Shown here: positions 6,192 through 9,093 of the stretch, in pieces
Numbering within the stretch: the stretch's first letter is position 1
How the letters are laid out: each line of letters opens with the position of its first letter
NCBI GenBank assembly: GCA_008501545.1
Contig: QQUM01000441.1
Coordinates: 1-10,653 of the forward strand
DNA: 10,653 nucleotides
Direction: 5' to 3'
From: Calditrichota bacterium
GTDB taxonomy: Bacteria; Zhuqueibacterota; Zhuqueibacteria; Zhuqueibacterales; Geothermadaptataceae
The notes under the pieces: generated by a model
What the model was told of the DNA's origin: nothing
Databases searched by the model: none
Seen by the model: only the letters and a program-made list of their open reading frames with translations
Translations under genes and position numbers: made by a program

Positions 6192-7619
6192 TTACACCAT
6201 TTGCAAAACTGCGCCGCGTTTCACAGCCCCATTCGTTGTTGTATCATCCGCCAGAATATCACTGTGAATTGCCTGTATTGCCGGTTCGCAGTCCGCAGTT
6301 TCTACAATAAAATATGCAGCAGCAGATGATGCGCCAATGGAAACCAGCCGGAGAGCAATGTCACGACTTATAAAAGCTTGCAAAACCCGGTTGTTTATGT
6401 GCTGATCTTCGGTAACGCCCTCACCTACAAGGGCTACGAGTGAGATATCGTCAACAATCGTAATTTGCTGTATGCTGGGAAGGCCCAATGACGTTACCAG
6501 TTGCTCACCTTGCTGCAGATTTTCTTTGGCCAGCATAAAATTTATCGACGTCTGCGAAGTAAAAATCGATTTAATATTGATATCCGCGTCATTGAAGGCC
6601 AACGTTATTTTATTAATTATGCCCGGGTTGATACCAATACCGGGTCCCGACATTTTTAGCAAAGCGATATCATTTGTGTAGGTCACGCTTTTTAGCTGGC
6701 CTGTCGCTTCTTCGGGATCATTCCGGATAATGGACGGGGCATCATTCACACTGCAGATTTCATTTATACTGAATATGCGGACCGGGATGTTTTTTTCAAC
6801 GAGTGGTTCGACGGTCATCGGGTGCAAAATTTTTGCTCCGAAATAGGATAGTTCAGCTGCTTCCCTGTAAGTCAGGTGTTTAAGCAGGCGAGGATTTTCG
6901 ATAATGCGCGGGTCGGCGCTCAGGAAGCCACTCACGTCCTTCCAGGTATCCAGGGAGGGTGCGTTGATGCAGCGGGCGATGGCAGCAGCAGTGTAATCGC
7001 TGCCTCCACGGCCCAGGAGTGTAACCCGGCCATTGTCGCGGGAAACGCCGTAAAATCCGGGAACCACGTTGGTTAAATTGTTGTTGAGACGTTTTTTCAC
7101 CAATGGCACAGCCCGCTCAAAATCGATGCGGGCATTCCCAAAACGGCCGTCAGTGATGAGCCCCATTTCTTCCGGTGTAACTTTTTCACATGCGATTCCG
7201 GCAGCAGAGAGAACAGACACGATTAATGAAGCAGAGAGCCGTTCACCGAAACTCATGACCATATCTTCGGTGAAATCGGGTGCTTCACCAAGATAATGCA
7301 CGCCTTTTAGGTACTTGGCAAGTTCATCGATCCGCACTTTTATTTGATTTACTGCCTGCTCCCGCTTTTTAGGTAAATCGATGTATTGGTGAATAATATC
7401 GCGTTTTAATGTCGTGAGATAGTCACTTAACTCCTCAATCACAGCCCGGTCATCCGTGGCTTTTGCAATCGTTTCTTTCAGACGGTCCGTCAAACCATAC
7501 CACGCAGAAACGACGATGACAAGTGGTTCATTGTATGCTCGCACAACTTCGATGATTTTACTCAGGTCGTCTTTGGATTTCAGATTCGACCCGCCAATTT
7601 TTATGACTCTTTTACTCAT
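6192..7619 (-). CDS. lysC: Aspartate kinase, monofunctional, with C-terminal ACT domains
   Basis: Phosphorylates L-aspartate with ATP, the first committed step to lysine, threonine, methionine and isoleucine. The 475-residue protein has an amino-acid-kinase domain: the N-terminal motif is KIGGSN (7-12; most homologues have KFGGTS), followed by SFGERLSA (123-130), VPGFYG (186-191), GRGGSDYTA (203-211), WKDVSGFLSADPRI (226-239) and SYFGAKILHP (258-267). Two ACT-like regulatory domains follow, about 319-380 (MSGPGIGINPGIINKI) and about 394-465 (LVALVGEGV, then RLVSIGASSAAAYFIV), so feedback inhibition by lysine or threonine is expected. There is no homoserine dehydrogenase fusion. The ATG at 7619 overlaps the asd stop as ATGA, implying translational coupling. 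The gene symbol is by function; the regulatory class (lysC-like or thrA-like) cannot be decided by eye. Confidence 0.95.
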   Translation of the reverse strand: MSKRVIKIGGSNLKSKDDLSKIIEVVRAYNEPLVIVVSAWYGLTDRLKETIAKATDDRAVIEELSDYLTTLKRDIIHQYIDLPKKREQAVNQIKVRIDELAKYLKGVHYLGEAPDFTEDMVMSFGERLSASLIVSVLSAAGIACEKVTPEEMGLITDGRFGNARIDFERAVPLVKKRLNNNLTNVVPGFYGVSRDNGRVTLLGRGGSDYTAAAIARCINAPSLDTWKDVSGFLSADPRIIENPRLLKHLTYREAAELSYFGAKILHPMTVEPLVEKNIPVRIFSINEICSVNDAPSIIRNDPEEATGQLKSVTYTNDIALLKMSGPGIGINPGIINKITLAFNDADINIKSIFTSQTSINFMLAKENLQQGEQLVTSLGLPSIQQITIVDDISLVALVGEGVTEDQHINNRVLQAFISRDIALRLVSIGASSAAAYFIVETADCEPAIQAIHSDILADDTTTNGAVKRGAVLQMV

Positions 7620-8644
7620 AACAGGTGCCCTTGGTATTGTCGGATGAATGCTTCAGCGTTAATTATTGAACCCCCGGCCGCGCCGCGCACAATGTTATTA
7701 GCCAGCAGAAGAAAACCGAACATGTTGTTTTGCCGGCGTAATCTCCCGGTAAAAACCTGCATCCCGGCCGGTTCGCCGTGCCATGCCAGTTTTGGTTGTG
7801 GAAAATCAACTGCGTCGCCATAGAGAACAGGCACTTTTGGTGCAGTCGGCAGGGCAGGGCCATCGAGCTGGAAATTTTTCCATGCTTGCAGTATATCCTG
7901 TTCGTTGACATTCTGTTCAAACTCAAGCCACAGTGCTTCCAAATGGCCGAATTTAACCGGAATGCGCACACAGGTTGGATAAATCTCAGTTTCTATCTCA
8001 AGGATTTTCTGGCATTCACGAATCACTTTGCCTTCTTCGCCATTGATGTGCGGAATGGCGTTCTCCATGATATCCAGTGCGGACAAGCCGGGATAGCCGG
8101 CGCCGGAAATCGCCTGATAGGTTGAAACAAACATTTTCCTGATGCCGAACGGCCGCAGCGGTGCCAGGGCAACAGCGAGACCTGCTGTGGTGCAATTGGA
8201 GTTTGTGATGATAAATCCTTTTTCCGGGAATCCCTGTTTTTCGATTTGGGCGAGTGATGGAAGATTCACTTCCGGAATGAGAATCGGCACGTTGTTTTCG
8301 TAGCGGTAAGCGCTGGCATTGGAAAAAACCCAGAAGCCGGCGTCACGCAATTCAGCTTCCACGCCCTTGGCGATGTCCGCCGGGAGCGCACTGAACACGA
8401 TTTGCACATCTGCCTTTTTTAATTCTTCGATATCAAATTTTGCAAAATTTAACGCGGCAATCGATTTTGGAAGGGGTTGTGGCAAAAGCCAGGTCGCTGA
8501 CCCGCCATAATTTTGCCCTTCCCGTTTGTCTGATGCGATGACGCGGGTCAGTTTAAACCAGGGATGTTCGGCCAGCATTTGTAAAAATACCTGTCCCACC
8601 ATGCCGGTGGAACCGAGTACGGCACATTTTATTTTATTTTTCAT
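7616..8644 (-). CDS. asd: Aspartate-semialdehyde dehydrogenase, archaeal/fungal type
   Basis: Reduces aspartyl-4-phosphate with NADPH to aspartate semialdehyde, the second step of the aspartate pathway and the branch point to lysine. The 342-residue protein begins with the Rossmann motif VLGSTGMVGQ (9-18). HPWFKLTRVIASDKREGQNYG (about 27-47) is typical of the archaeal/fungal subfamily rather than the E. coli type. The catalytic cysteine is Cys151 in SNCTTAG, and the probable general base is His234 in RIPVKFGHLEA. The C-terminus contains the NNIVRGAAGG segment of the cofactor-binding fold. The ATG at 8644 is preceded by AAGGA. It is first in the operon and its transcription is likely controlled by the leader upstream (8755-8898). 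Its stop overlaps the lysC start by four bases. Confidence 0.95.
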   Translation of the reverse strand: MKNKIKCAVLGSTGMVGQVFLQMLAEHPWFKLTRVIASDKREGQNYGGSATWLLPQPLPKSIAALNFAKFDIEELKKADVQIVFSALPADIAKGVEAELRDAGFWVFSNASAYRYENNVPILIPEVNLPSLAQIEKQGFPEKGFIITNSNCTTAGLAVALAPLRPFGIRKMFVSTYQAISGAGYPGLSALDIMENAIPHINGEEGKVIRECQKILEIETEIYPTCVRIPVKFGHLEALWLEFEQNVNEQDILQAWKNFQLDGPALPTAPKVPVLYGDAVDFPQPKLAWHGEPAGMQVFTGRLRRQNNMFGFLLLANNIVRGAAGGSIINAEAFIRQYQGHLL

Positions 8645-8667
8645 TTTTTGTCCTTTCTGTGCTCTTT

Positions 8668-8701
8668 CCGATCGAGCAGGGGATATTCCCTGATGGATCG
8701 G
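8668..8701. repeat. Palindrome in the asd 5' region, copy 2 of the dispersed repeat
   Basis: Bases 8668-8701 pair around a central GATATT/C core with only two mismatches and a wobble (CCGATC against GATCGG, CAGGG against CCCTG). The core 8672-8699 matches 341-368 at 24 of 28 bases in the same orientation. It lies about 24 bases before the asd start, between the attenuator terminator and the ribosome binding site, so it would form a hairpin only in read-through mRNA. Confidence 0.7.
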
Positions 8702-8754
8702 GAGAAAGACCGGTTGTGAATTTTATGAATCCAATTTATTAAGCGCTTTGGTGC

Positions 8755-8788
8755 AAAAAAAAAGCCTTTCCAAAACGGAAAGGCTTTT
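8755..8788 (-). terminator. Intrinsic terminator (attenuator) upstream of asd-lysC
   Basis: On the minus strand GCCTTTCC (8784-8777) and GGAAAGGC (8771-8764) form a perfect eight-base stem with loop GTTTT. Four more A-U pairs extend it to twelve, and a run of nine T (8763-8755) follows. This is a textbook rho-independent terminator for leftward transcription, but it stands 110 bases before the asd start and not after a gene. It comes 26 bases after the leader peptide stop, so it fits a conditional attenuator. On the plus strand only four T follow the stem, so rightward termination would be weak. Confidence 0.9.
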
Positions 8789-8830
8789 ATAGTCTAAAAC
8801 TGTTCAGCTGAATGCTATAATCCACCTTTT
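8779..8830 (-). promoter_or_regulatory. Candidate antiterminator hairpin of the asd-lysC leader
   Basis: In the minus-strand RNA, AAAGG (8829-8825) can pair with CCUUU (8783-8779), which is part of the terminator's 5' arm, and UUAUAG (8820-8815) with CUAUAA (8792-8787). A small internal loop separates the two helices. This fold excludes the terminator. Its 5' strand contains the last codons and the stop codon of the leader peptide, so a ribosome reaching the stop would mask it, whereas a ribosome stalled upstream would leave it free. The pairing was found by eye; no energies were computed. Confidence 0.65.
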
Positions 8831-8898
8831 CGAAAACGACATTTACAAGTCGTGGTCATCATGGTTGTTTTCGTGGTTTTAATGATGGATTTTATCAT
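8815..8898 (-). CDS. Attenuator leader peptide rich in Thr, Lys, Met and Ile
   Basis: A 27-codon ORF starting MIKSIIKTTKTTMMTTT and ending in RKGGL. It contains seven Thr, five Lys, three Met (including the start) and three Ile, the four amino acids made from aspartate semialdehyde, which the genes just downstream produce. It precedes a strong terminator and asd-lysC. The expected role is regulatory: when charged tRNAs (mainly Thr) are scarce the ribosome stalls at codons 8-17, the antiterminator forms and the operon is read. When they are plentiful the terminator forms. The E. coli thrL peptide has the same kind of composition, but the sequence is not otherwise the same. The Shine-Dalgarno is weak (AAGG, about 12 bases upstream). 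An in-frame stop ten codons upstream, with no other ATG, GTG or TTG between, supports this start. Confidence 0.8.
   Translation of the reverse strand: MIKSIIKTTKTTMMTTTCKCRFRKGGL
8831..8873 (-). promoter_or_regulatory. Candidate 1:2 (protector) hairpin in the leader
   Basis: In the leader RNA CGAAAAC (8873-8867, within codons Thr9-Lys10-Thr11) is exactly complementary to GUUUUCG (8837-8831), and ACC (8877-8875) to GGU (8826-8824). This fold would overlap the 5' strand of the antiterminator and so favour termination when the leader is not translated. A ribosome stalled on the Thr/Lys codons would disrupt it. A smaller alternative stem, ACGAC with GUCGU around the Cys-Lys-Cys codons, is also possible. 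Confidence 0.5.
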
Positions 8899-8942
8899 GT
8901 TAATTTTATGCCTTGATTTCTCTTTTCAAAGAAGGAAGGTTT

Positions 8943-8970
8943 AAAATAGAGAATTTCATTTTAAATTCAA
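8943..8970 (-). promoter_or_regulatory. Possible promoter of the asd-lysC operon
   Basis: On the minus strand TTGAAT (8970-8965) and TATTTT (8948-8943) are spaced by 16 bases, like a weak σ70-type -35/-10 pair. Transcription would start about 38 bases before the leader peptide ATG. The area is AT-rich, so chance matches are easy. The remaining gap 8971-9081 shows no gene and no convincing rightward promoter. Confidence 0.3.
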
Positions 8971-9093
8971 GTAAATTTTTATTTATACGAAATAATGCAA
9001 ATTTATTCGGAAATTTCTCTTGTAACAAAAACAAATCACTACCGTAGGACAGGTAATTGAAATTTAAGTGCATGCATAAAGAAGGGAGATTTA

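Follow-up and report, generated by a model that had tools for sequence, protein, structure and literature searches.

Does the DNA ahead of the asd-lysC operon in this genome of an uncultured bacterium hold a ribosome-mediated attenuator and, if so, which amino acids would it sense? Ribosome-mediated attenuation is a textbook mechanism, and it had been proposed for this operon in a preliminary description of the stretch analyzed here (the window, 10,653 nucleotides). The proposal is well supported by our analysis: the parts of such a system were found in all three genomes of the genus that were examined (G000, the window's own, G001 and G002, all with asd), similar units were seen in other members of the phylum, and judging from these features the element at 8755-8898 very probably is a transcription attenuator of the classical type (Table 1).

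Table 1. Positions of the asd-lysC leader, its predicted regulatory parts and the genes downstream, in window coordinates.
Feature	Position	Strand	Remarks
Possible promoter, TTGAAT-N16-TATTTT	8943..8970	-	read by eye; below consensus scan threshold
Leader peptide ORF, MIKSIIKTTKTTMMTTTCKCRFRKGGL	8815..8898	-	27 codons plus TAG stop; kept in G001 and G002
Region 1, AAUCCAUC	8884..8891	-	1:2 stem with 8826-8819 (GGUGGAUU)
Control codons 7-17, KTTKTTMMTTT	8848..8880	-	K7, T8, T12, T15 and T17 invariant in 3/3
Region 2, AAAGGUGGAUUAUAG	8815..8829	-	ORF 3' end including stop; antiterminator 5' strand
Region 3, CUAUAAAAGCCUUU	8779..8792	-	antiterminator 3' strand; overlaps terminator 5' arm
Intrinsic terminator	8755..8788	-	12-bp stem, nine T at end; also found by consensus scan
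asd, aspartate-semialdehyde dehydrogenase (asd_EA type)	7616..8644	-	TIGR00978 above cut-off
lysC-like monofunctional aspartate kinase with ACT domain	6192..7619	-	overlaps asd stop

The two genes named as controlled were borne out by domain searches. The asd product matches TIGR00978 (asd_EA), and the lysC-like kinase passes TIGR00657 and carries AA_kinase and ACT domains, with no homoserine dehydrogenase domain found in it. The large upstream ORF of the window faces the opposite way (9094 onward, plus strand), so no upstream gene is evident that the terminator ahead of asd could belong to.

The 27-codon minus-strand ORF was also as first described, with Thr (7), Lys (5), Met (3) or Ile (3) at 18 of its 27 residues; it is thus short and rich in codons for products of the pathway, as expected for a ribosome-mediated attenuator. 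Among 3000 dinucleotide shuffles of 8645-9093, scored for ORFs of 15-45 codons, none gave 7 Thr per 10 residues and none gave 11 of 11 T/K/M residues; a third threshold of 8 Thr was likewise reached by no shuffle, but the real leader, with 7, also falls below it. This composition bears on the alternative that we are looking at a gene for a small RNA or small protein that ends in an ordinary terminator, with asd transcribed from a promoter further downstream, which would be in keeping with the 110 bp between the T tract and asd in the window. That gap is, however, about 30-40 bp in G001 and G002, the ORF composition fits the products of the operon that follows, and the same layout also precedes metY, metX and aspartate-kinase operons; we regard a separate small gene as improbable.

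Two inverted repeats were seen elsewhere in the window: a palindromic intergenic element at 330-377 (24-nt arms, 96% complementary), and an imperfect repeat at 2805-2920 (49-nt arms, 73% complementary) that lies between two minus-strand genes and runs into the end of one. A stretch that by eye resembles the 330-377 palindrome lies at about 8670-8700, between the attenuator and asd, where an inverted-repeat tool finds none; the core pattern of this second stretch was absent from all other loci examined, including G001 and G002.

Downstream of the leader ORF and ahead of the first structural gene, the terminator and its nine-T tract were recovered by folding as well as by the consensus scan. The stem (8788-8760) has 12 pairs, a GTTTT loop and a free energy of -16.9 kcal/mol (z -6.2 versus shuffles); the T tract spans 8763-8755, with four of the nine T inside the stem. 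Of 40 genomes searched for the stem pattern, 3 contain it, each a single time: G000, G001 and G002. Both helices of the antiterminator built from the ORF end (AAAGGU/GCCUUU plus UUAUAG/CUAUAA, with the leader stop codon included) were also recovered by folding, at -11.1 kcal/mol and thus less stable than the terminator. For this single sequence the pairing is near chance (z -1.4, 21 of 200 shuffles equally good; tail-to-terminator pairing p 0.077 in 1000 shuffles), and its significance comes from the leader set as a whole. Folding of the whole leader gave z -3.0 versus shuffles. The protector stem described earlier exists in that region 1 pairs with the ORF tail, but it encloses the Thr and Lys codons and does not cover them.

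We compared the asd upstream regions across the genus, whose close relatives carry source names of candidate division KSB1 or Calditrichaeota. A leader, a 1:2 stem, an antiterminator and a terminator precede asd in all three genomes, and three mutually exclusive stems (1:2, 2:3 and 3:4) are possible in each leader. The peptides of the genus mates are MNLITTSKTTMCTTIITMTCNICFWRGGL in G001 and MKIKSTTKTMKMTMMKTMTCTCGFWKGGL in G002; all three share the end GGTGGATTATAG, and gaps among the ORFs are of whole codons only. In G001, the 1:2 stem is retained via different codons and in a different register (CCACCUC with GAGGUGG). From the last Thr codon to region 2 the distance is 6 codons in both G000 and G001, and 4 in G002. 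The alignment proposed in the preliminary description thus showed the ORF, its Thr content and the stems to be kept in 3/3, but gave little covariation within the genus because region 2 is nearly invariant there. By eye, a promoter-like TTGRAW-N16-TATYTT also precedes each leader (TTGGAT-N16-TATCTT in G001, TTGGAA-N16-TATCTT in G002). G000 and G002 have a further aspartate kinase gene, with a terminator hairpin upstream of it but no leader, and with another gene ending before it. In the genus, the flanks examined around hom, thrC and dapA yielded no leader-plus-terminator pair.

Beyond the control codons, Cys18 (8847-8845), Phe22 (8835-8833) and GGL are invariant in the three genomes, and the RNA pairing explains GGL but not Cys or Phe. 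A conserved tail of this kind might itself stall the ribosome, perhaps with an effector, as in nascent-peptide arrest. Only three sequences show the invariance, however, and the tail differs in other families with the same layout, making arrest by the peptide about as improbable as the small gene considered above.

The search for related leaders covered the phylum, where 49 of 82 genomes gave an asd match at 1e-30. In family f8, 6 of the 8 asd-bearing genomes carry a terminator immediately ahead of the gene and a leader bearing Lys, Thr and Met codons, since G045 keeps the terminator without a leader and G023 has no clear unit. The Gly-Leu codons of these leaders (GGGCTT and variants) match the 5' arm of the terminator, and compensating changes were seen by eye (GGGCTC/GAGCCC in G050, AGGCTT/AAGCCT in G048). 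In three of the six leaders (G044, G036 and G049), the gap between the nearest Thr or Lys codon and the GGGCTT-like region 2 is exactly four codons, or about one ribosome footprint; in the other three it is 0, 5 and 2 codons. Upstream of asd in G045 (L023), the terminator is kept and the leader ORF of its genus mate G046 is missing, through deletion or assembly error. The gene after asd in G044, G036 and G045 is of one kind, not a kinase and GFO/IDH-like by Pfam in G045; this kind of gene is absent directly after asd in G048.

Leaders with other targets were found as well: a Thr/Lys/Met leader before an aspartate kinase in G038; a Met and Thr leader in G006, in an operon with metY first and the kinase and asd later; Met-rich leaders before metY-metX-kinase in G066 and before metX, then a kinase (by N-terminal motif), in G015; and a Lys/Met leader in G042 before a gene without assigned function, then asd. 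The Met-rich leaders and their terminators lie at 1268-1412 of L097 (G066), 2889-3045 of L095 (G006) and 2947-3068 of L099 (G015, minus strand), and none of the three has an Rfam match at gathering score. In the window's genus, Met/Cys leaders precede metY in both G001 and G002, with a tandem pair in G002 (L143, minus strand: ORF 990-1085 with terminator 1109-1138, and ORF 1279-1392 with terminator 1432-1456) and one in G001 (L144), resembling the first G002 unit by eye; metY was not found in G000 (68% complete). In family f6 (G051, G033, G018 and G039), asd is preceded by a terminator, a remnant or nothing, and no convincing leader; a candidate leader ORF in G051 was rejected because it runs through its own terminator. 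No leader-like terminator lies directly upstream of asd in 20 further regions of the class and phylum, where asd often follows another gene, and no leader was found at the metY loci of the f8 and f6 genomes.

Across 14 leaders that we selected, the pairing of ORF tail and terminator gave individual p values from 0.001 to 0.97 (1000 shuffles) and a Fisher combined p of 3e-10. With one leader per genus, the combined value was 7e-8 (G002 for the window's genus), or 2e-6 with the worst leader of each multi-leader genus. The G038 leader shows no tail pairing (p 0.97) and those of G006 and G066 show it weakly (p 0.2). A strict scan, with thresholds fixed after most candidates had been seen, returned 12 matches when run over both strands of 151 loci (616 kb) and none in four shuffles. 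All 12 lie on the same strand as, and directly ahead of, operons of asd, aspartate kinase or metY, and scanning all 212 loci returned the same 12 units.

That the terminator has an alternative pairing would also fit a riboswitch, a T-box or a protein-bound attenuator. However, the window has no Rfam match at gathering score, the 12 weak matches in nine related asd loci are all under gathering, 18 met, hom and kinase loci have none at gathering, and the weak matches in the leader are mostly to unrelated families; we consider such a regulator highly improbable. Sub-gathering matches (Thr_leader at 24 bits in L022 and L024, Trp_leader at 30 bits in L025, and others) were judged to be chance or family resemblance.

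From the sequence, its conservation and the competing pairings, we infer transcription, translation and ribosome stalling, with a direction of response and acting amino acids, as follows. RNA polymerase would start just upstream of the leader. With ample threonyl-tRNA, and probably lysyl-tRNA too, the ribosome would reach the stop codon and cover region 2, allowing the terminator to form and keeping asd-lysC off. If the tRNA is scarce, the ribosome would stall in the Thr/Lys/Met run, leaving region 2 free to pair with region 3, which would block the terminator and permit transcription of asd-lysC. In an untranslated leader, region 2 would be hidden in the 1:2 stem, making termination the default.

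Which amino acids act is less certain. The same mechanism might sense threonine only, like the thrABC attenuator, with the Lys, Met and Ile codons as filler of an AT-rich leader. Thr alone has several invariant positions (four, against one for Lys), and the genus leaders have a GC content of 0.35-0.37, favoring AAA. Yet the G001 leader has the same GC content (0.36) and one Lys codon, versus 5 and 6 in its genus mates; this 98% complete genome has one kinase match, no dapB match and dapA only under cut-off, whereas both genus mates carry the pair, which may point to loss of the DAP pathway in G001. The leader of its metY nonetheless contains three Lys codons, and Lys outnumbers Thr in 4 of the 6 f8 leaders. 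We regard sensing of threonine alone as rather unlikely, though well ahead of the other alternatives. The earlier statement that Lys is as prominent as Thr nearly holds for G002 (7 T, 6 K), less so for the window (7 T, 5 K) and not for G001 (8 T, 1 K).

A wider comparison pointed the same way. dapB was found in G000, G002, G038, G044, G048 and G036 (in the last near dapA, with 119 bits against a cut-off of 122). In G046, G049 and G050, tblastn located it next to the kinase, G046 being counted although its dapA match is under cut-off. G001, G006 and G066 had no dapB match at 0.001 and dapA matches below cut-off; in a control, the dapB search was positive in 11 of 14 known genomes, missing Thermus, Deinobacterium and Sulfolobus. 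Leader Lys codons number 5, 6, 3, 4, 4, 6, 5, 3 and 2 in the nine dapB genomes and 1, 0 and 0 in the three without. This is full separation (2-6 versus 0-1; exact p 0.0045 for fractions and 0.008 for counts, kinship ignored, genomes of known DAP status only, which excludes G042 and G015), though two of the three dapB-lacking leaders (G006 and G066) head met operons and only the within-genus contrast compares like with like. That contrast, between G001 and its genus mates, is suggestive of Lys sensing, not proof. The idea that one leader senses several branches is thus plausible, in that Lys codons go with dapB, with the qualification that no residue but Thr is invariant at several positions. 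Threonine would be the surest signal of the window's leader, and sensing of Lys, and of Met, is likely for operons that supply those branches.

In enterobacteria, thrL-thrABC has a Thr-rich leader peptide with an ORF end that doubles as an antiterminator strand, followed by a terminator. The window's leader shares these traits and an aspartate-pathway target, and differs in sequence, in its Lys and Met codons, in phylum and in its target, since it precedes asd and a monofunctional aspartate kinase and not thrA-thrB-thrC. Against the Rfam threonine leader model (RF00506), a comparison called for in the preliminary description, it scored 18.3 bits (gathering 55; E 0.31, 261-base search) and therefore lies outside that family. 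The ilvGMEDA leader is multivalent (Leu/Val/Ile), and would resemble our reading in that one leader answers several end products; the Thermus lysine leader, on which we found nothing in the literature searched, would resemble it in being a Lys leader. Both belong to other pathways and lineages. The closest published case we found is the SEP5 sORF of the Alphaproteobacterium Sinorhizobium meliloti, with six Thr and three Lys codons near its 3' end, which the report places in the 5'-UTR of a gene named aspartate dehydrogenase, describes as a possible leader peptide whose translation was detected by Ribo-seq and Western blot, and finds conserved only in Sinorhizobium (PMC10117765). It shares with the window's leader the Thr and Lys codons and the 5'-UTR of an aspartate-named gene, and differs in lineage; the available text of that report does not describe alternative stems. 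Since a Thr/Lys leader has already been proposed in Sinorhizobium (PMC10117765), the window's appears to be a variant and not the first of its type. According to the part available to us of a 2010 survey, leader-peptide systems were known from Proteobacteria and Actinobacteria, with bacilli added (PMC2965389); further related papers are PMC4833913 and PMC1262725. Among the literature matches listed, which cover few subscription papers, there was no report of this mechanism for the phylum or for asd-lysC.

Tentatively, and at somewhat less than even confidence, we suggest that the leaders of this phylum are many-input sensors heading the aspartate pathway, with codons that change as the pathway gains or sheds operons and branches, Lys disappearing with the DAP/lysine branch and Met taking over when met genes join. 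A further type worth searching for is represented by the Met/Cys leaders ahead of metY. Because G000, G001 and G002 differ as they do, genome comparison can be used to test which amino acids a leader senses. If the leaders do take many inputs, their codon content would predict which products an operon serves.
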